Shown one piece after another: positions 3,269-50,041 of a DNA stretch of 64,000 nucleotides. The stretch comes from Deltaproteobacteria bacterium (GTDB taxonomy: Bacteria > Desulfobacterota > Desulfobulbia > Desulfobulbales > Desulfurivibrionaceae), in the NCBI GenBank assembly GCA_021802775.1, contig JAJZRJ010000003.1:1-64000 (forward strand), read 5' to 3'. The position numbers were made by a program, and so were the translations under genes. Below the pieces are notes generated by a model. It searched no databases and was not told the origin of the DNA. It worked only from the letters and a program-made list of their open reading frames with translations. Within the stretch, counting starts at the first letter, position 1. The number at the start of each line of letters is the position of its first letter.

Positions 3269-5209
3269 ATGGCAACGATAGCCGTGACCCTCACAGGGGG
3301 CGAAGCCAAACAAGTTCCGGCCGGAATCACCGCGGCGGCGGCGCTCAAAGAGCTCCTCTCCAACAAGGAGCGCAAGCAGACGCTGGCCGTGCGGGTACAG
3401 GGCGAGTTGCGCGATCTGGCGACCGTGCTTACCGCCGACTGCGCGCTCGAACCGGTGACGGCGGAAAGCCCGGAAGGGCTCACGATTCTGCGCCACAGCG
3501 CCGCCCACATCATGGCCGAGGCGGTACTTGATCTCTTTGGCCAGGAGGTCCAGGTGGCCATCGGCCCGGCGATCGACGACGGCTTCTACTACGACTTCGA
3601 CCGGGCAGTTGCCTTCACCCCGGAGGATTTCGAGAAGATCGAGCAGCGGATGGCCGCAATCGTGGCCGCCAATGCCCCCTTTGTCCGCAAGGGGATGACC
3701 AGGGCCGAGGCCATCGCCCTTTTCGAGGCCAAAGGCCAGAAGTATAAGGTCGAATTGCTCCAGGAGATCGAGGCCGAGACCGTGTCGGTTTACGAGCAGG
3801 GCGGCTTTGTCGATCTCTGCCGCGGGCCGCATCTGCCCAATACCGGCTGGCTCAAGGCCTTCAAGATTGTCAAATTGGCCGGCGCCTATTGGCGCGGCGA
3901 CGAAAAGCGGCAGATGCTCCAGCGCCTCTATGGCACCGCGTTCTTTGACAGCAAGGCCCTCAAGGCCTACCTCAATCAGCTGGAAGAGGCCAAGAAGCGC
4001 GACCACCGCAAGCTCGGCAAGGAACTGGGGCTCTTCACCATCCAGGACCAGATCGGGCCCGGGCTCATCCTCTGGCAGCCCAAGGGCGCGCTCATGCGGC
4101 GGGTGATCGAGGACTACTGGCGGGAGGAGCATTACCGCAACGGCTACGAACTGCTCTATACCCCGCACATCGCCCGGCGCGACCTGTGGAAGACCAGTGG
4201 TCACCTTGATTTTTACGGGGAGAACATGTTCTCCGCCATGGATATCGAAGAGGTGCAGTATCAGCTCAAACCGATGAACTGCCCCTTCCATATCGCCATC
4301 TACAAGTCGGACAAGCGGAGCTACCGCCAGTTCCCCCTGCGCTGGTGCGAACTGGGCACGGTGTACCGCTTCGAGAAGACCGGCGCGCTCCATGGCCTCA
4401 TGCGGGTGCGCGGCTTCACCCAGGACGATGCCCATATCTTCTGCCGGCCGGACCAGCTCGAAGAGGAGATATTCCACATCCTCGACCTCAATCTCCACAT
4501 CCTGCGGACCTTCGGCTTCGAGCGGTACGACATCTACCTCTCCACCCGGCCGGAGAAGTACGTGGGCAGCGATGAGCACTGGGAGCAGGCGACCAGCGCC
4601 CTCAAGATGGCGCTGGAGAAAAAGGGGCTCAATTATCAGTTCGATCCGGGCGAGGGTGTTTTCTACGGCCCGAAGATCGACATCAAGATCAAGGACATGC
4701 TGAATCGCGCCTGGCAGTGCTCCACCATCCAGGTGGATTTCAACCTGCCGGAGCGTTTTGCCATCACCTACACCGGTGAAGACGGCAAGGAACATCAGCC
4801 GATCATGATCCACCGGGCCTTGATGGGCTCCCTGGAGCGCTTCTTCGGCGTGCTCATCGAGCATTACGCCGGAGCCTTCCCGGTCTGGCTGGCGCCGGTG
4901 CAGGCGCGCATTTTGAACATCACCGACGCCCAGCTCGGCTATGTGGAGGAGCTCTTCCAGGAGCTGCGCCGCGCCGGGGTGCGGGTCGAGAAGGATACGC
5001 GCAACGAGAAGCTCAACTACAAGATTCGCGAGGCGCAGGTTCAGAAGGTCCCGTACATGCTGGTGGTGGGCGATAAGGAAGTGGCAGAGCGCCAGGTGAC
5101 CGTGCGGCTTCGCGACGGGCAGAACCTGCCGGCCATGTCGGCGGCGGATTTTGTCGCCCTGGTGGCGAAAGAGACCGCCGAACACCGGAAGCCGTATCCT
5201 GCCGCATAA
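3269..5209 (+). CDS. thrS: threonyl-tRNA synthetase
   Basis: A class II synthetase charging tRNA-Thr; 646 residues, normal for the family. An N-terminal TGS-like domain is followed by the editing domain with HSAAHIMAEAV (HxxxH) near 72 and the later CRGPH segment. The catalytic core contains MNCPFH near 339, RWCELGTVYRFE, RGFTQDDAHIF and motif 3 HRALMGSLERFFG. The anticodon-binding domain starts near PVWLAPVQA. It heads the translation cluster; infC follows after 84 bp, as in many bacteria. Confidence 0.98.
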   Translation: MATIAVTLTGGEAKQVPAGITAAAALKELLSNKERKQTLAVRVQGELRDLATVLTADCALEPVTAESPEGLTILRHSAAHIMAEAVLDLFGQEVQVAIGPAIDDGFYYDFDRAVAFTPEDFEKIEQRMAAIVAANAPFVRKGMTRAEAIALFEAKGQKYKVELLQEIEAETVSVYEQGGFVDLCRGPHLPNTGWLKAFKIVKLAGAYWRGDEKRQMLQRLYGTAFFDSKALKAYLNQLEEAKKRDHRKLGKELGLFTIQDQIGPGLILWQPKGALMRRVIEDYWREEHYRNGYELLYTPHIARRDLWKTSGHLDFYGENMFSAMDIEEVQYQLKPMNCPFHIAIYKSDKRSYRQFPLRWCELGTVYRFEKTGALHGLMRVRGFTQDDAHIFCRPDQLEEEIFHILDLNLHILRTFGFERYDIYLSTRPEKYVGSDEHWEQATSALKMALEKKGLNYQFDPGEGVFYGPKIDIKIKDMLNRAWQCSTIQVDFNLPERFAITYTGEDGKEHQPIMIHRALMGSLERFFGVLIEHYAGAFPVWLAPVQARILNITDAQLGYVEELFQELRRAGVRVEKDTRNEKLNYKIREAQVQKVPYMLVVGDKEVAERQVTVRLRDGQNLPAMSAADFVALVAKETAEHRKPYPAA

Positions 5210-10942: not shown

Positions 10943-11019
10943 CGGGATGTAGCGCAGTCTGGTAGCGCACCTGAATGGGGTTCAGGGGGCCGGAGGTTCG
11001 AATCCTCTCATCCCGACCA
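10943..11019 (+). tRNA. tRNA-Pro (anticodon GGG)
   Basis: The acceptor stem CGGGATG/CATCCCG, D arm GCGC...GCGC, anticodon stem CCTGA/TCAGG with loop ATGGGGT (anticodon GGG), T loop TTCGAAT and encoded CCA at 11017-11019 are all readable. The last 33 bases plus 6 bp downstream are duplicated at the far end of the prophage, so the 3' half of the present gene was probably delivered by an integrating element. Confidence 0.95.
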
Positions 11020-13482: not shown

Positions 13483-14366
13483 TAGATCTTCCTGTTTTGG
13501 CAAGAAATTTAAAAGGGATGGAGGTTGTGGAGGCTGGCGGTGTGGCGGTGACCACAGCGCAGAATCTGTCTGCTGCCTTGGAGTACAAAAGTGAAAACGC
13601 TGTCCATGTGATCTTCACCAGGAACGCCAAATCCTTCAAGGACGCCGGAGTCGTTGACCTGACACAAAGGTCTTTCAACTTGAAAGACCCTGTCGGAGGG
13701 GATGGTTTTCAAATTGAAAACCCCTGCTCCGGAGGGGTGACCCAAATTGACTCACCCTGCTTTTCCGACAAGTACGACACAGCCCTGGTGCAGCTTTACA
13801 CGCCTGGCCGCCCGGACGGAAACGGCGGCGGCGGGCTGCAAAGCGTCCGCGTCTTTACCAAGCGCGGGGCGATGAAGGTGTGTATGAAGTCGAACCAGCC
13901 AAAGGCGGTGATGGTGCAGGATATGCTGCTCGATCTCTACGAGCAGGTGGAAAGCGGCCAACTCATGGGCGCGGAGCGGTTCGGGCGGATGCTGGAAGGC
14001 TTGGCCCAGGGCCTGGCGGCCCTGCAACAAGAGGTGGCCCACCTGAAGAGCCGGCCACCGGTGCACATCAACCTGCCGGACGATACGGCTCTGCCGATCG
14101 TGCTGGAGCGGCAGCGGAAACACTGCTGCTATTTCGTGGGGCCGTTCCGGTTCAAAGAGGTGCGCGATATGGCCCTGACCATGCGGAGGGCCGGCCACAC
14201 ATATAAGGACATTGTGGAGGCTATACGGAAAAGGTGGCCGGGCGAACCGGAGAAGCACACAAGCAGGTCGAGTGTGCAACGCCTTTGGGCGAACGCCCGG
14301 ACCGGCAAACTGAAGGAATACGGCATCGACGCAACCATTCATTTTTTGCGGGAGGGTGAGAAGTGA
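13479..14366 (+). CDS. BRO-N/Rha-like phage protein with C-terminal extension, second tandem copy
   Basis: 295 residues. Residues 1-24 match the preceding gene exactly, and VRVFTKRGAMKVCMKSNQPKA aligns with that gene's C-terminal half. A 40-residue insertion (around 65-105, with two Cys and repeated DPVGG/ENPCSGG-like turns) separates them. A new C-terminal part contains a helix LEGLAQGLAALQQEVAHLKS and a putative HTH (MTMRRAGHTYKDIVEAIRKRWPG...SSVQRLWANA), suggesting DNA binding. Overlaps the transposase start by 4 bp. Confidence 0.8.
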   Translation: MIDLPVLARNLKGMEVVEAGGVAVTTAQNLSAALEYKSENAVHVIFTRNAKSFKDAGVVDLTQRSFNLKDPVGGDGFQIENPCSGGVTQIDSPCFSDKYDTALVQLYTPGRPDGNGGGGLQSVRVFTKRGAMKVCMKSNQPKAVMVQDMLLDLYEQVESGQLMGAERFGRMLEGLAQGLAALQQEVAHLKSRPPVHINLPDDTALPIVLERQRKHCCYFVGPFRFKEVRDMALTMRRAGHTYKDIVEAIRKRWPGEPEKHTSRSSVQRLWANARTGKLKEYGIDATIHFLREGEK

Positions 14367-16654
14367 AAGTCACCACCGCAGATAGCTGGCCCACGGCCGG
14401 CGAGATCGCCGAGGCCCTTGGGACGAAGAAACGGGCGGTCCAGCATCGCGCCACCAAGGAGAGATGGGCCTACAAAGAAGAGCCGTGCCGTGGCGGTCAG
14501 ATCCGGCGTTTCAACCCCGCCTCTCTACCCAAGGATGTGTGGCGACGGATCAAGGGCCACCGCGAGGCCCAGGCCATCGGCAAGGCCATCGCCACGGTGT
14601 CGCCGGCGTCGGTACCGGCACCAGTGGAAGACTCAGCCACCCCCGATCTTGCCAAGCTCAACCTGCCGGTGGCGGTGGGGCAGTTCCCCGCGAAACCGCC
14701 GGCCGCTCGCGCCATCACCGAGGCGCAGCGGGCAAAGGCCCTGGCCAAGGCGGATATCCTCAAGCTCTACACCGCCGCCATCGCCGCAGCACCAAGGGGC
14801 CAACAGGTAACTGCCCGCGACGAGTTCATCACCACCTACAACGCCGGCCTCGCCTGGCCCGCGCTCTTTACCCAGGTCGGACCGGTCCATTGGAAGACCA
14901 TCGAGGGCTGGAAGCAGCGGCTGAAAAATAGCCGGAACGACGCCTTTGCCCTGGCAGATACTCGCGGCGCCCACCACCGTGGCATGCATTACCGCCTTGC
15001 CGCTACACATACCGAAACCCTACTGGCCCATGCGTTGGTTCCCGGCAAGCGCAAGGTATCCGAGGCCATCCGCCTTACCCGCTCCACCATGGCGGCCCAG
15101 CGCATCGAATTGCCCTGCTCTGACGCCACCCTGTATAGATGGCTCGAAAACTGGAAGAGCCGCAATTTCGACCTCTGGGTGATGATCCGCGAAGGCCGCA
15201 AGGCATGGAGCGAGCAGTGCGAGCCGTACCTCATCTGCGACTACTCCAATATGGCGGTTGGCGATGCCCTGGTGGCCGACGGCCACCCGCTCAACTTCAG
15301 GATCATCAACCCCTGGACCGGCAAGGCCCAGAACCACATGACCCTGCTGCTCTTCTCGGACATGCTGAGCACCAAGCCGCTGGGCTGGGAGATCATGCCC
15401 ACCGAGAACACGGCGGCGATCCACGCGGCCCTGCGCCGGGCGATCATCGCCCTGGGCAAGATACCCAAGAAGGTCTACCTGGACAACGGCAAGGCGTTCC
15501 GTGGCGCGCACTTCAAGAGTGTGCGGAACTTCGACGAGGTCGGCTTCGAGGGGCTTTACAGCCGCCTCGGCATCGGGGTGAGCCACGCCATGCCCTACAA
15601 CGCCAAGGCAAAGCCCATCGAGCGCTTCTTCGAATCATTCGGCGAACTGGAGCGCCTGCTCTACCCGGTCTACACCGGCACCTCCATCGACCAGAAGCCG
15701 CCCCGGATGCACCGGGGGGAGCGGATGCACCGCGAGGCGCACGCCAAGGTATTCGGCGAGGAGTGCGCCATCACCATGGAGCAGGCCCATGTGGCCATTG
15801 CCGCCTGGTTTGACGAGTATTCGCGGCGGCCGAGCCGCAGCGAGCACCTTGCCGGCGCCACCCCGCAGGAGGTGTTCATGGCCGGCCGGGGGCCAGGGGT
15901 TGACCCGGCCGAACTCACCTTCCTGATGATGAGCATCGAGGGCAAGCGTATCCGCCGGGGGCAGATCACCCACAATGGCGGCATGATCTACCGGCACAAG
16001 GAGCTGTACGGGCAGGACCGCGAGGTTTCGATCCGTTACGACCTGCAAGACCCGTCGGTGATCTACGTCTACAACCCGGATGGCAGCTTCCTCTGCGCGG
16101 CGCCGCAGGCGGCCACGGTTGACCGGATGGCCGACCTGGTGGGCGACGAGGCGGTGGCGCGGCTGGCCGACGAGATGGGCAGCAAGCGCGGCCTGGAGAA
16201 ACAGACCACGGTTACAGCCAAGGCCATTCTGGAGCAGCATGTGCTGGTTGAGCACCGGCGGCAAATGGAGACCATCGGCGCCCTGCCGGCCCCTCTGGCC
16301 ACGGGCCGGAAGGAGAAGGTGCGGCAACTGCCGGCGCCGAAGATGACCGTGGAGGAGTGCGAGCGGAAGATTGCCGAGGCGGAAGAGGCGGGCCGGATGT
16401 TCGCGGAGCGCGAGGCGGCGGCCCTGGCCGAAGAGCTTATGGGCCTGAGCGAGGCGGACCGCTACGAGCGGATGATCGAGATGGAGATGAAGGGCGAACC
16501 GCTTACCCAGGAGCAGCGAGGGTTTTTGCGGGTCTATGAGCAGGGCGACGAATACCTGCGCAACGAGGATTACTGGACCAGCCGCCGCTCGGCGCTGGCC
16601 ATTCTGTATGGGCAAAAAGAAATGGCGGCTGATGACGCAGCCGCCAAAGAGTAA
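14363..16654 (+). CDS. Mu-type transposase (MuA homologue, DDE family)
   Basis: 763 residues. The N-terminus (WPTAGEIAEALGTKKRAVQHRATKERWAYKE) is the MuA winged-helix DNA-binding domain. Then come further end-binding helical domains and an RNase H-fold core with catalytic Asp306 (VADGHPLNF), Asp374 (YLDNGKAF) and Glu420 (KPIERFFESFGE). After a beta-barrel domain a long charged C-terminal tail (about 650-763) probably contacts the MuB-like ATPase and ClpX. It cuts phage ends and joins them to target DNA. All three catalytic residues are present, so it looks functional. Confidence 0.95.
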   Translation: MKVTTADSWPTAGEIAEALGTKKRAVQHRATKERWAYKEEPCRGGQIRRFNPASLPKDVWRRIKGHREAQAIGKAIATVSPASVPAPVEDSATPDLAKLNLPVAVGQFPAKPPAARAITEAQRAKALAKADILKLYTAAIAAAPRGQQVTARDEFITTYNAGLAWPALFTQVGPVHWKTIEGWKQRLKNSRNDAFALADTRGAHHRGMHYRLAATHTETLLAHALVPGKRKVSEAIRLTRSTMAAQRIELPCSDATLYRWLENWKSRNFDLWVMIREGRKAWSEQCEPYLICDYSNMAVGDALVADGHPLNFRIINPWTGKAQNHMTLLLFSDMLSTKPLGWEIMPTENTAAIHAALRRAIIALGKIPKKVYLDNGKAFRGAHFKSVRNFDEVGFEGLYSRLGIGVSHAMPYNAKAKPIERFFESFGELERLLYPVYTGTSIDQKPPRMHRGERMHREAHAKVFGEECAITMEQAHVAIAAWFDEYSRRPSRSEHLAGATPQEVFMAGRGPGVDPAELTFLMMSIEGKRIRRGQITHNGGMIYRHKELYGQDREVSIRYDLQDPSVIYVYNPDGSFLCAAPQAATVDRMADLVGDEAVARLADEMGSKRGLEKQTTVTAKAILEQHVLVEHRRQMETIGALPAPLATGRKEKVRQLPAPKMTVEECERKIAEAEEAGRMFAEREAAALAEELMGLSEADRYERMIEMEMKGEPLTQEQRGFLRVYEQGDEYLRNEDYWTSRRSALAILYGQKEMAADDAAAKE

Positions 16655-16678
16655 CCCCTCAACAACCAGCAAGGAGGT

Positions 16679-17404
16679 TTGATGAAAGAGATACGCGTTT
16701 CTCCGGTATTTGTCAACAAGGTTCGGAACGTCCGCAACTTCCAGGTCATGCTCGACGCCCTGATGCTGTCGGCCGGCGAGGGTAGGCTGGCGGCGGTGGT
16801 CGGCCCGGCCGGGCGCGGCAAGACCAGGACGGCCCAGTGGTACGCGGCCAACAACGGCTGCGCCTTTGTGCGCTGCCTCTCTATCTGGCGGCACAGCGAG
16901 CTGGGGTTCTTGCAGGCCCTGTGCCGCGAGCTTGGGGTTAAGGAAGTCCACCACCGCAAAAACCCGGCCTTTCTGGCGGTGATGGACGCGCTCAACAAAC
17001 AGGAGGGCCGACCGGTCTTTATCGAGGAGATCGAGAAGCTGCCCAGGCTGCATCTTGAATTGGTCCGCGACCTCTCGGACCTTTCCAGCGCCCCGTTCGT
17101 GCTGATCGGCGAGGAGGAGCTGGAGGGCCACCTGAAGCCGATCCGCCGCATGTGGAACCGTTGCTTCCAGCTCCTGCAATTCGAGGCCCTGGACGTGGCG
17201 GACACCATGGTCTTTGTCCAGGCCGCCTCGGGGCTCAACCTGCCGGGCGATGTCGCGGACCTGCTGCACCAAAGCGCCGCGGGCTGCTTCCGGGTCATTA
17301 AGCGCGACCTACAGAATCTGGCCAACATCATGAACGCCAAGCGGGCCGCCGCGCCCACCCTGGAAATGGCCAAGCTGGCGATCAAGCAGAGTTTGAGGGG
17401 GTGA
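16679..17404 (+). CDS. MuB-type AAA ATPase, transposition target-capture protein
   Basis: 241 residues with Walker A GPAGRGKT (41-48) and Walker B VFIEEIEK (112-119). Order after the transposase and size fit MuB/TnsC-like ATPases, which pick target DNA, stimulate the transposase and give target immunity. It lacks the N-terminal HTH of Mu MuB, beginning with VSPVFVNKVRNV, as in the shorter B proteins of many Mu-like phages. AAGGAGG is 8 bp upstream of the ATG. Confidence 0.9.
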   Translation: MMKEIRVSPVFVNKVRNVRNFQVMLDALMLSAGEGRLAAVVGPAGRGKTRTAQWYAANNGCAFVRCLSIWRHSELGFLQALCRELGVKEVHHRKNPAFLAVMDALNKQEGRPVFIEEIEKLPRLHLELVRDLSDLSSAPFVLIGEEELEGHLKPIRRMWNRCFQLLQFEALDVADTMVFVQAASGLNLPGDVADLLHQSAAGCFRVIKRDLQNLANIMNAKRAAAPTLEMAKLAIKQSLRG

Positions 17405-45711: not shown

Positions 45712-46047
45712 ATGTACGGATACCCGAAGTTGATCGCCACCCGCCACGACGTCGACGTGCTGATGGGCTATCTCGGGAGCGAGTGGGCGACCGAGGAGAA
45801 CAAGGCCAAGGGGGTGGCGTTTTTCCGCGGTCTTATCGCCAGCGCCCGGGCCTACGTGTTCGACCGGATGCTGGCCGAGGGCGAAGCGGCGGCCGGGCCG
45901 TTGCCCGAGTACATCGTGCTCGTGCAGGAGGATGGCACCCGGCGCCAGGAGCGGCTGGTCGATGATCCGGCCGGCCGCATTTACCGCCTGGGCTACACCG
46001 TGGCCGAGGTCGAGGCGATGATCGCAACTATCGAGGGAGGTGCGTAA
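45712..46047 (+). CDS. hypothetical protein in the DGR module
   Basis: 111 residues; starts 3 bp after the adaptor gene and its stop overlaps the next ATG. Helical (VLMGYLGSEWATEENKAKGVAF, FRGLIASARAYVFDRMLAEGE), with the C-terminus YRLGYTVAEVEAMIATIEGG. Could be a fibre assembly chaperone. It does not show the small basic four-helix features of Avd, so I do not call it so. Confidence 0.7.
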   Translation: MYGYPKLIATRHDVDVLMGYLGSEWATEENKAKGVAFFRGLIASARAYVFDRMLAEGEAAAGPLPEYIVLVQEDGTRRQERLVDDPAGRIYRLGYTVAEVEAMIATIEGGA

Positions 46048-47108
46048 TGGCAGCTGGAGACAAGATCATCGTGCCGGCCATGGCGGCCGGGTTTGTATCG
46101 CTTTTCGGGCAGATCAGCAAAGGGGCGGGCGATACGGTCCACCTGCCCGAGGGCATGGCCAACATCGGTGGCAACGGGTTCGGTTATCTGCTCGCCCCGG
46201 CGGTCAACTGGGACCCGCTGGCGGCCGGCAACAACGACGGCTCGTTTGCCGCGCTCGCCCTGGGCGACAACATCTATATCTACGCCGTCCGGCAGGCCTC
46301 CGGCACGGCGAAGTGGGTCGCCTCCAAAAACTCCACCGTGCCCACCGGCTACGATGCGGCGAGCAGCCGCAAGATCGGAGGGTTCCACGTGGGACGCTAC
46401 CGGGGCGTGGCCAACCGCTACAATACCGCGTATGCCCCGGTGACGCAGATTCTCCCCAACTCCTGCTGGGACCTCGCCCACCGTCCGACCTGCGACCCGA
46501 CCGGCATGGTGGAGGTGATCCCGGGCAGTCTGTGGGTGGATATCTACCCCAACTCCGAGGGCGCCGGCCTCTGGCCGGAAAATGTTCCGGTGAGCGTCTA
46601 CGGCGCCACCATCATCCGGGATACCATTTACAGCCGCTCGGATTTTCACCAGCTCATCAACAACGCCGGCAAGCGGCTGCCCACGGTCGAGGAGTTCCTC
46701 CGCTACGCCGAGGGAGCCCCGGCCGGGCTCGATGGCAGCAACGACCAGGCGTGGTCGATGACCACCAACACCGGCCCTACTACGGCCGGCGGCGTGGCCA
46801 AAGCGGTGAGCCAGTACAACGTGGTCGACGCGGTGGGCAACGTCTGGGATTGGCTCGACAGCCATCATGACATCGGCGACTACAATGGTTCCGTGACCCC
46901 CTACGCCTGGGATGCCGCCGTGGTCAACGTCGGCAAGGATGCCGCCTATCCCCGCGGCAGCGTGGACCACGCGGCGTGGGGGGCGTTCATCGGCGGGGGC
47001 CCTTGGCTCGGCGGCGTGCTCGACGGTGCGCGCTGTCTGTACTCGAGTGCGGTTCCGTGGGATGCGGATGGCCGTGTGGGTCTGCGCGGCGTCTGTGACT
47101 CCCTGTAG
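46047..47108 (+). CDS. DGR variable protein: tail tip with C-type-lectin/FGE-like fold
   Basis: 353 residues. An N-terminal beta-rich part (1-110) is followed by a formylglycine-enzyme/CLec-type domain: IGGFHVGRYRGVANRY, KRLPTVEEFLRYAEGAP, VVDAVGNVWDWLD and the end GRVGLRGVCDSL. The last 35 residues contain the variable repeat. TR-directed substitutions change residues 320-322, 332, 334, 336, 339, 341 and 343 (now W, L, G, Y, S, V, D, D, R), the surface ligand site in this fold; residue 319 is altered silently. It very likely is the receptor-binding protein. Confidence 0.93.
   Translation: MAAGDKIIVPAMAAGFVSLFGQISKGAGDTVHLPEGMANIGGNGFGYLLAPAVNWDPLAAGNNDGSFAALALGDNIYIYAVRQASGTAKWVASKNSTVPTGYDAASSRKIGGFHVGRYRGVANRYNTAYAPVTQILPNSCWDLAHRPTCDPTGMVEVIPGSLWVDIYPNSEGAGLWPENVPVSVYGATIIRDTIYSRSDFHQLINNAGKRLPTVEEFLRYAEGAPAGLDGSNDQAWSMTTNTGPTTAGGVAKAVSQYNVVDAVGNVWDWLDSHHDIGDYNGSVTPYAWDAAVVNVGKDAAYPRGSVDHAAWGAFIGGGPWLGGVLDGARCLYSSAVPWDADGRVGLRGVCDSL
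47001..47099 (+). repeat. DGR variable repeat (VR)
   Basis: 99 bp aligned without gaps to TR at 47156-47254 (offset 155). Twelve differences, at 47003, 47004, 47008, 47010, 47040, 47047, 47052, 47053, 47061, 47067, 47073 and 47074, all opposite TR adenines. None occurs at the other 81 positions. The last 24 bp are invariant, as expected for the initiation side of homing. Confidence 0.97.
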
Positions 47109-47124
47109 CATGAACCCTGATGAG

Positions 47125-47142
47125 GCCCCGCGGCAGCGGGGC
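47125..47142 (+). promoter_or_regulatory. DGR target-recognition hairpin/cruciform after VR
   Basis: GCCCCGC (47125-47131) and GCGGGGC (47136-47142) form a perfect 7-bp stem with loop GGCA (GRNA type). It begins 26 bp after VR and past the stop codon. BPP-1-type DGRs need such a short GC stem with a four-base loop downstream of VR for efficient homing. No T-run follows, so it is not a terminator. Confidence 0.8.
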
Positions 47143-47155
47143 TTACTCCTGCTGG

Positions 47156-47254
47156 CCAAGGCACAGCGGCGTGCTCGACGGTGCGCGCTGTCTGAACTCG
47201 AATGCGAATCCGTGGAATGCGAATGGCAATGTGGGTCTGCGCGGCGTCTGTGAC
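47156..47254 (+). repeat. DGR template repeat (TR)
   Basis: 99 bp with 18 adenines, mostly in six AAC/AAT codons placed in the frame of VR (47195, 47201, 47207, 47216, 47222, 47228). AAY codons allow change to 15 amino acids without stops. Twelve adenines are already altered in VR. TR is transcribed and reverse-transcribed with errors at A. Confidence 0.97.
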
Positions 47255-47432
47255 CACCATCATGCGAGAGGGCGGCGATGGTTCGCCGTCACCCAGCACC
47301 CCACCAGGGGGTCAGCCTGCCCGGCCTGGTCCCGCACAAGCGGGCCGAAGATTTGAAAACGGGCACGCCGCGCGAGTAGCCGAAAGGCGAAAGCCCGGCG
47401 TGGCCACCTCTCATATTAATGATAAGGGAAGC
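47255..47432 (+). other. TR-RT spacer, likely part of the functional TR RNA
   Basis: 178 bp without a convincing gene. Open frames crossing TR here are by-products. GC-rich with local inverted repeats (for example GGCGGCGATGGTTCGCCGTC). In BPP-1 the RNA downstream of TR is needed to prime and guide cDNA synthesis, so this spacer probably has that role. GATAAGGGAAGC near 47421 provides the ribosome site of the RT gene. Confidence 0.6.
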
Positions 47433-48467
47433 ATGGGCCAGAAGCACAAGCGACTGATTGAAAAGATTGTCGACTGGGATAACCTCATCGAGGCCCACCG
47501 ACTGGCACGCCGTGGCAAGCGCAATCGCGAGGAGGTGATCCTTTTTGAGGCCAGCCTCTGGGAGGAGTTGGGCCGGCTGCAGATGGAGCTGCTCTGGGGC
47601 ACCTATCGGCCTGGTGGCTACCGCACCTTCGTGATCCGCGAGCCCAAGCGGCGGGAGATCGCCGCGCTGCCCTACCGCGATCGCGTGGCGCAGCATGCCA
47701 TCTGTAACATCTGCGCGCCCATCTGGCACAGCGGCATGATCAATGACACCTACGCCTGCCGCCCCGGCAAGGGCACCCATGCCGCGGCCAATCGCTGCCA
47801 GCGCTGGCTGCGCGATATGCACAAGAGCGGCCGGCCGGTGTGGCTGCTCAAGATGGACGTGAGCCGCTATTTTCCGAGCATCCGCCATGCCCTGGCCAAG
47901 CAGGTCGTGCGCCGCAAAATTGCCTGCCCGGCCACCCTGCGCCTGCTCGATACGATCATCGACAGCACGGCCGCCTGCGGCGAGACGGACCCCGTGGGCA
48001 TCCCGGTGGGCAACCTCACCAGCCAGTGGATCGCCAACCTGGTCGGCAACGAGCTGGACCAATGGGCCAAGCGCGAGCTGCGGCTCAAGCGTTATATCCG
48101 CTACATGGATGATATGGTGGTGCTCTGCTGGAGCAAGGAGGAGGCCCTGGCCGTCCGCGACCGATTCGAGGGCAAGCTCGCCTCCATGGGGATGACCTTC
48201 AGCAAGACCAGCGTGCTGCCGGCCGGCCGTGGCCTCAACTTTGTGGGCTATCGCATCTGGCACGATCATCGGCTGCTGCGCCGCCAATCCATCGTCACCA
48301 TGAGGCGGCGGCTGAAGGCGCTCCAGGGGCAGTTCCGGGAGGGGCTGATCAGCCTGGACCGGGTCCAGGCCACTGTTTCGTCGTGGGTGGCACATGCCGC
48401 TCATGCGGATAGCTATCGCCTGCGATCCAAGGTATTGGGCGCCGCTGTTTTCCGGCGAGAGAACTGA
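47433..48467 (+). CDS. DGR reverse transcriptase
   Basis: 344 residues from ATG 47433 with AAGGGA upstream; an open frame from 47202 crosses TR and is not the start. RT motifs: catalytic Asp142 in LLKMDVSRYFPSI, then GIPVGNLTSQ (189-198), the DGR-specific SQ form of motif 4, YMDD at 224-227, and NFVGYRIW (269-276). There is no maturase or endonuclease domain. It makes A-mutagenised cDNA from TR RNA that replaces VR. All catalytic residues are intact. Confidence 0.95.
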   Translation: MGQKHKRLIEKIVDWDNLIEAHRLARRGKRNREEVILFEASLWEELGRLQMELLWGTYRPGGYRTFVIREPKRREIAALPYRDRVAQHAICNICAPIWHSGMINDTYACRPGKGTHAAANRCQRWLRDMHKSGRPVWLLKMDVSRYFPSIRHALAKQVVRRKIACPATLRLLDTIIDSTAACGETDPVGIPVGNLTSQWIANLVGNELDQWAKRELRLKRYIRYMDDMVVLCWSKEEALAVRDRFEGKLASMGMTFSKTSVLPAGRGLNFVGYRIWHDHRLLRRQSIVTMRRRLKALQGQFREGLISLDRVQATVSSWVAHAAHADSYRLRSKVLGAAVFRREN

Positions 48468-48916: not shown

Positions 48917-49267
48917 TCAAGACTCCCCAAGAAGACATTCGTAGGGGATACGCATTCCTTTGTGCAATTTTTTAATCTGCGGCACAGAAAGACCGCGTTT
49001 CCGGTTCAGCACATCGCTTACTCGACTTTTCGGTCCCAAAAATTCCTGAAGTTTTTTTCGGTCTATCCCCATTTGATCCATTTGGAAAAGAATCGCATTT
49101 ACTGGATCGGACGGGGGAATTGGATAGTGCTTGTTTTCGTATGCCTCGACAAGCACCATTAAAATTTCCAGTTCATCGCCTTCAGGGGTATTGGAGGCAG
49201 CGCCCCAAAGCTCTTCGATGCGCTCAAGGGCCTCTTGGTAGGCATGTTCATTTTTTAACGGTTTCAT
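48917..49267 (-). CDS. HigA-type antitoxin
   Basis: 116 residues. N-terminal helical part (ALERIEELWGAASNTPEGDELEIL, then LVEAYENKHYPIPPSDPVNAI) and C-terminal XRE HTH (MDQMGIDRKKLQEFLGPKSRVSDVLNRKRGLSVPQIKKL), typical of HigA. Its ATG overlaps the toxin stop, giving the toxin-first order of higBA. Neutralises HigB and represses the operon. AT-rich like the surrounding remnant. Confidence 0.92.
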   Translation of the reverse strand: MKPLKNEHAYQEALERIEELWGAASNTPEGDELEILMVLVEAYENKHYPIPPSDPVNAILFQMDQMGIDRKKLQEFLGPKSRVSDVLNRKRGLSVPQIKKLHKGMRIPYECLLGES

Positions 49268-49566
49268 TTCACCACCTCGGTTTCTATTTCATCGTATTCC
49301 TTGTGGGTTCCTACAAATTTGATGAACATTGCCTGCCTTTGATAATCCATCGCGCAGACTACCCTGTAGCTGTTCCCTTTCACATTGAATACGACCCGAT
49401 TTTCTGCCACGATCGAGGCATGGCTGAATGTATTTTTAACATCTTGTGGAGTTGCCCATTTTTGTTTTTTGCAAAAGTGATACCATTCCGTCAGAAATGG
49501 TTGGGCCTTTTCGTTGCCGGGTTTTTCCCAGTACTTTCTCAATCTGCTTTTGGCAATTATTCGCAT
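49264..49566 (-). CDS. HigB-type toxin (RelE-superfamily mRNA interferase)
   Basis: 100 residues from ATG 49566 (MRIIAKSRLRKYWEKPGNEK); an upstream in-frame start at 49608 adds residues not seen in HigB. Conserved features: AQPFLTEWYHFCKKQKWATPQDV, RVVFNVKGNSYRVVCAMDY, and FIKFVGTHKEYDEI. It cuts mRNA at the ribosome. As an addiction module it would stabilise the integrated element. Confidence 0.92.
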   Translation of the reverse strand: MRIIAKSRLRKYWEKPGNEKAQPFLTEWYHFCKKQKWATPQDVKNTFSHASIVAENRVVFNVKGNSYRVVCAMDYQRQAMFIKFVGTHKEYDEIETEVVK

Positions 49567-49966
49567 CCATGAACCCGGTTGTTCCCAATATGGTAACAAC
49601 CTCCCCATTTGTTGTCAATGATGAAAATATCTTTTCAGGGCGAGCCTCTTGCAAAATGACGAATCAAGCCTTTTGTGCAGGCGCGGTAGGTAGAGTAATA
49701 CCGATCCGGGAGAAGGCCGTGCTTCCGGGTTGGATGCTCCCGCTAACGCACCCCAGGCGAGGATGTCTTGACCCAATTTGCCATGGTTTGCACCATAAAT
49801 TTGTCCCGCCTATGTCCAGCTTTTTAGGCTGGCAGGCAATGAAATTACATGAAAGGCAAAATATGGTTTTTTTTCTCGTAAAGTCAACGAGTTTTGTGGC
49901 TGTTTCGGAGGGGTTGAAAGGGGATGAAAAGGGTTGAAAAGTGTTCCGTTTTGAATGGGGGTTCAC
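49567..49966. other. non-coding AT-rich right flank with phased repeats
   Basis: No convincing gene in these 400 bp. Three 10-bp units, GGGTTGAAAG, GGGATGAAAA and GGGTTGAAAA, run tandemly at 49911-49940, 26 bp before attR. Like the phased GGGA repeats by attL they may be arm-type integrase sites. An 8-T run at about 49867-49874 follows a purine-rich stretch. The higBA promoter should lie at 49570-49640. Confidence 0.5.
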
Positions 49967-50005
49967 GGGCCGGAGGTTCGAATCCTCTCATCCCGACCAG
50001 TAATA
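49967..50005 (+). other. attR: displaced 39-bp tRNA-Pro 3' end
   Basis: Identical to 10987-11025. Upstream bases (GAATGGGGGTTCACG) are a slightly diverged copy of the tRNA anticodon-arm sequence. This is a tRNA fragment with no 5' half, so not a gene. Confidence 0.88.
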
Positions 50006-50008
50006 TGC

Positions 50009-50041
50009 AAGAGGTATGGCCTGATGGTCATACCTCTTTTT
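50009..50041 (+). terminator. original host terminator of tRNA-Pro, now past attR
   Basis: AAGAGGTATG (50009-50018) pairs with CATACCTCTT (50029-50038), followed by a T-run. It directly follows the tRNA fragment, and is probably the terminator that served the tRNA gene before the insertion. Confidence 0.85.

Follow-up and report, generated by a model that had tools for sequence, protein, structure and literature searches.

The 64,000-nucleotide stretch of DNA analysed here, which we refer to as the window, contains a Mu-like prophage with a diversity-generating retroelement (DGR) at its right end. Genes for a MuA-type transposase (14363-16654, + strand; PHROG 310, 4.6e-90) and a MuB-type DNA transposition protein (16679-17404, + strand; PHROG 296, 1.6e-38) together span 14363-17404 and are followed downstream by terminase, portal, head protein, sheath and baseplate genes. 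This combination of MuA/MuB transposition genes with a Mu-type head and tail module bears out the Mu-like assignment made in the initial annotation. The right end of the prophage is perhaps near 48.85 kb, as judged by similarity to the related locus L094; a search for the prophage ends and a target-site duplication did not find the left end. The gp47 baseplate gene is short (257 aa) and had raised the suspicion of general prophage decay, which was ruled out by the equal length of this gene in the related phage L016.

Tail protein, reverse transcriptase and conserved structures

The Mu-like tail and baseplate genes lead into a gene for a 353-residue Mtd homologue (46047-47108, + strand), the tail receptor-binding protein that is the target of the DGR. 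Its product matches Pfam mtd_2nd (3.5e-21), the tail family PHROG 11262 (3e-48) and the Mtd-I1 structure (PDB 1yu3, 1.3e-16), with Mtd structures matching through to the C-terminus, and shares 51% identity with Mtd of the phage YPCBV-1 from end to end. The protein has a weak FGE-sulfatase match besides that to mtd_2nd, as befits a target with a C-type-lectin (FGE/Mtd) variable domain. VR lies at the 3' end of this gene, in agreement with the tail-tip location originally proposed. By homology to the TR of relatives its full extent is ~141 bp (46959-47099, + strand; blastn to the TR of L093, positions 4686-4826, 85.8%), of which only 47009-47099 is still templated in this genome. The genome holds one VR and one reverse transcriptase (RT), and no second copy of either was found in it.

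The DGR RT (344 aa, 47433-48467, + strand) is encoded by an intact open reading frame that carries the GNLTSQ and YMDD motifs, as had been noted, and the profile search for the DGR-RT family that had been suggested as a check returned PHROG 1423 (1.7e-130). Among solved structures the BPP-1 RT (8ub7) is nearest (7e-69). In our tree the window RT is nested with strong support in the Avd-bearing DGR clade, and group II-type RTs are separate with 100/100 support. Homology to Mtd and Brt, the PHROG and PDB matches and the tree all confirm the classification of the element as a BPP-1-type DGR.

Downstream of VR is an inverted repeat, GCCCCGC-GGCA-GCGGGGC, that constitutes a candidate IMH hairpin or cruciform with a GRNA loop (47124-47141, + strand). 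The 7-bp stem is 97% paired over 11 sequences, with compensatory changes in 3 pairs, and sliding the helix as a control left no compensatory pairs. This structure conforms to the rule for IMH hairpins of phage DGRs, namely a GC stem of 7-10 bp and a 4-nt GRNA loop located 4-34 bp after VR (PMC3240598). The hairpin is placed within the first avd codons in this clade, and in the window it lies inside the avd remnant described below, untouched by the deletion. The TR-RT spacer (47255-47432, + strand) is a conserved structured RNA that is also intact: the consensus fold of 12 sequences has compensatory change in 20 of its 41 pairs, and the window retains 40 of the 41. No credible Rfam match was obtained for the TR-spacer RNA.

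The avd remnant and the truncated TR

Directly after the mtd stop codon come the first ~18 codons of an avd gene (MNPDEAPRQRGLLLLAKA; 47110-47163, + strand), which run straight into a 5'-truncated TR, with the junction at about 47162-47164. The remnant matches the Avd of YPCBV-1 (phmmer, E 8.8e-5) and agrees with the Avd N-termini of eight relatives. For comparison we used close relatives with RTs 63-90% identical to that of the window, taken from viral and genome collections, and from GenBank in the case of YPCBV-1. In each close relative fetched avd is located between mtd and TR, and a complete avd and full TR occupy the same place in L011, L018, L093, L094, L095 and YPCBV-1. The NCBIfam Avd model NF033474 (cut-off 80) scores 93 bits for L093 and 96.8 bits for YPCBV-1. 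Measured against L011, L018 and L093, the window is missing 371-372 bp, comprising everything in avd beginning at roughly codon 19, together with ~46 bp of the TR 5' end (about a third of the template), so that the earlier description of all parts of the element as intact does not hold. A functional DGR of the Avd-dependent BPP-1 type requires a complete avd and a TR as long as VR; the window has only ~18 codons of the former, and its TR is 91 bp long against a VR of ~141 bp.

The same relatives define where TR begins. VR and TR pair without gaps at an offset of 155 and with mismatches exclusively at TR adenines, as first described, but the start originally given for TR (47156) and the counts derived from it (12 of 18 adenines and 0 of 81 other bases changed) have to be revised. 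In the alignment with L011, L018, L093, L094, L095 and YPCBV-1, bases 47156-47162 (CCAAGGC) fall in avd codons (L-A-K-A) and not in TR. Because the earlier start lies in avd, the mismatches counted at 47003, 47004 and 47008 are all three chance pairings of VR with avd. The VR/TR counts and the alignment with the complete TRs of relatives give a remaining TR of 91 bp out of about 141 (47164-47254, + strand), which truly overlaps VR at 47009-47099. Within this overlap 9 of 15 TR adenines are changed and 0 of 76 other bases (hypergeometric p = 6e-9), and a strict count from 47012 gives 8 of 14 adenines and 0 of 74 others. TR limits drawn from a single sequence may thus take in foreign bases that pair at adenines by chance.

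No Avd above the cut-off was found elsewhere in the genome; with an assembly completeness of 91%, the portion not recovered may contain one. At G000:C68:10957-11265 and C49:63977-64291 the genome encodes two members of the Avd superfamily with a four-helix bundle (TIGR02436). Among viral loci with upstream DNA, 65 of 67 have Avd, the exceptions being the window element and the distant L082. The deletion is observed in one genome only, and the sole other copy of the element, L010 from IMG/VR, is 100% identical and probably derives from the same genome. The lack of a visible Avd in the window therefore reflects a deletion that left an N-terminal remnant behind, and the persistence of the avd start indicates a recent loss and no ancestral trait. 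The remnant, together with the presence of Avd in all close relatives examined, argues against the element being a natural Avd-less variant, and corrects the attractive but wrong reading of an intact DGR without Avd.

Activity before and after the deletion

Comparison of VR among related phages, an approach already proposed for this locus, yields direct evidence of natural DGR activity for L016 and L017, near-identical phages with Avd from two metagenomes. Their identity over 6,084 bp is 99.77%, their TRs are identical, and all 14 differences are at VR positions opposite TR adenines. Since they differ solely at such positions, the Avd-bearing DGRs of this clade are active in nature. The window VR appears from the alignment to have been made by a complete system, because it is diversified also upstream of the present TR start.

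In reconstituted BPP-1 DGR, loss of Avd reduces activity to about 1e-9, and the avd RNA carries near its 3' terminus, in its 3' end, a motif that terminates reverse transcription (PMC12875486). Both avd and its 3'-end terminating motif are gone from the window. Given the essential role of Avd in BPP-1, the window DGR is likely, by analogy, to have lost its activity, and the suggestion that it may be active finds no support. Avd nevertheless seems not to be indispensable to every DGR, because a compact phage lineage apparently without it exists: in the distant L082 lineage (L082 4587-4876, loci L182-L257), 66 of the 69 loci whose DNA was examined have no Avd match. The members of this lineage are mostly compact VR-TR-RT cassettes with a VR to TR distance of mostly 150-350 bp and strict adenine bias (in L227, 29 of 33 adenines changed and 0 other bases). 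Avd-independent DGRs thus seem to exist, but the window RT lies outside that lineage, nested with strong support among Avd-bearing elements.

The remnant, the deletion, the intactness of the remaining parts and the lack of another Avd in the assembly are direct observations, and we consider it highly probable that the locus is a BPP-1-type DGR in a Mu-like prophage that was recently disabled by a deletion of ~371 bp. The element was once active and is now probably stuck. By homology to characterized systems, an RT-Avd complex would formerly have reverse-transcribed TR RNA with its structured spacer, making errors at adenines; the IMH hairpin would then have directed the resulting cDNA to the end of mtd, where it took the place of VR and gave an altered receptor-binding tail protein. 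Comparison with relatives suggests that the deletion probably arose by slippage or recombination at a short imperfect repeat of ~11 bp common to avd and TR (GGC-n-GAGCGGC versus GGAACAGCGGC). It spared VR, the hairpin, the TR 3' end, the spacer and RT and, barring an Avd provided in trans, would have left the prophage with a single frozen sequence at the tail tip. The zero non-adenine differences between VR and the remaining TR fit a recent loss but equally a still-active element.

It is this last ambiguity, together with the intact RT, spacer and hairpin, that could favor reading the element as an intact, active Avd-free DGR in which adenine-mutagenic retrohoming needs no more than RT and the shortened TR RNA. 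Such a reading could also draw on the compact Avd-less DGRs with strict adenine bias of another phage lineage and on the tolerance of BPP-1 for internal TR deletions (pMX-deltaTR23-96, PMC3240598). We nevertheless regard it as unlikely, given that the window RT sits within a clade whose examined neighbors all carry Avd, that the retained avd start marks the loss as recent rather than ancestral, and that Avd is essential in BPP-1 (PMC12875486). We think it quite unlikely that the locus, within the Avd-dependent BPP-1 clade, represents a derivative that has naturally become independent of Avd and still retrohomes despite the loss of avd and of part of TR; were this true, RT and a minimal TR-spacer RNA would be sufficient for retrohoming. 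Diversification in trans of a cassette that is defective alone, by a host four-helix-bundle protein or by the Avd of a co-resident phage, has a precedent in the function of BPP-1 DGR parts in trans from plasmids (PMC3240598), and the genome does encode the two four-helix-bundle proteins mentioned above. However, both are TIGR02436 proteins and were rejected as Avd (L006 has no match and L007, at 16.9 bits, falls short of the cut-off of 80), and no genomic Avd reaches the cut-off, making this explanation very improbable.

Near-identical VR and TR sequences 155 bp apart are a known hazard for short-read assembly, and the deletion comes from a single assembly, so the true genome might have a full avd and TR that were lost when the assembler collapsed the VR/TR region. 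This seems quite improbable to us: the junction joins avd to TR and not VR to TR, the repeat that these share is ~11 bp, imperfect and below usual assembly k-mers, and VR and TR are both there as distinct sequences with continuous flanks. The IMG/VR copy (L010) is identical, though probably not independent. The probability that RT is a group II intron or retron enzyme, with the repeat unrelated, is negligible. Although the top NCBIfam match of RT is a group II RT model, its 111 bits are far under the cut-off of 300; PHROG, PDB and the tree, with group II-type RTs apart at 100/100, place the enzyme with BPP-1 Brt and refute such an origin, and no intron or retron RNA match was found.

Related elements and genomic surroundings

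Among the closest known counterparts of the window element is that of the Mu-like Chromohalobacter phage YPCBV-1 (OP380511, PMC9769972), which has the same arrangement of baseplate genes, mtd, avd, TR and RT at its right end, an RT 68% and an Mtd 51% identical to those of the window, and the same hairpin and spacer RNA, but differs in possessing a complete avd (NF033474, 96.8 bits) and a 126-bp TR. Bordetella phage BPP-1 (mtd-avd-TR-brt) shares the target family, the RT family, the order of parts, the IMH hairpin rule and adenine mutagenesis; it differs from the window element in not being Mu-like, in possessing Avd together with a TR of 134 bp, and in being more distant in sequence (RT 40%, Mtd 30% identical). 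The DGR of MAG SKS1.bin10 (Deltaproteobacteria, L093/L174), from the same host family, has a 90% identical RT, the same spacer and a nearly identical TR 3' part, but its avd and TR are complete. Bacillus BalMu-1, the Bacteroides hankyphage (PMC6199706, PMC12135933) and prophages of Desulfovibrio piger (PMC12724379) are also transposable and have tail-fiber DGRs, but unlike the window element they have an Avd-like accessory gene, either reported or seen here. D. piger, too, is a sulfate-reducing member of the former Deltaproteobacteria. Mu-like phages bearing DGRs, in Desulfovibrio among others, are already published (PMC9769972, PMC6199706, PMC12724379); the avd/TR lesion is the instructive feature of an otherwise ordinary member of a known group. 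Together with the complete sister element from its host family, this natural knock-out makes Avd dependence and DGR decay testable.

The deltaproteobacterial host guessed from the sequence agrees with this relationship, in that L093, the RT relative recovered in a Deltaproteobacteria-labelled MAG, and G018, which belongs to the window's host family, are the same DNA. Among the related genomes checked for the same prophage, G018 is the only one in the host family with a close RT, and an RT of this kind is absent from the one other genome of the host's genus. G018 has, besides its 90% copy, a second RT (G018:C3:1031-1996) that is 40% identical to the window RT and perhaps represents a second DGR.

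Adjoining the DGR are genes on the - strand for a HigB-type toxin (49264-49608) and its HTH antitoxin (48917-49267), a pair (48917-49608) that lies between the likely phage end and a tRNA-Pro fragment. This fragment (49952-50015) is a copy of the 3' part of tRNA-Pro plus terminator, ~39 kb from a complete tRNA-Pro gene (10943-11019) to the left of the prophage region. The duplication looks like an attachment-site duplication, which would be odd for a purely Mu-like phage.
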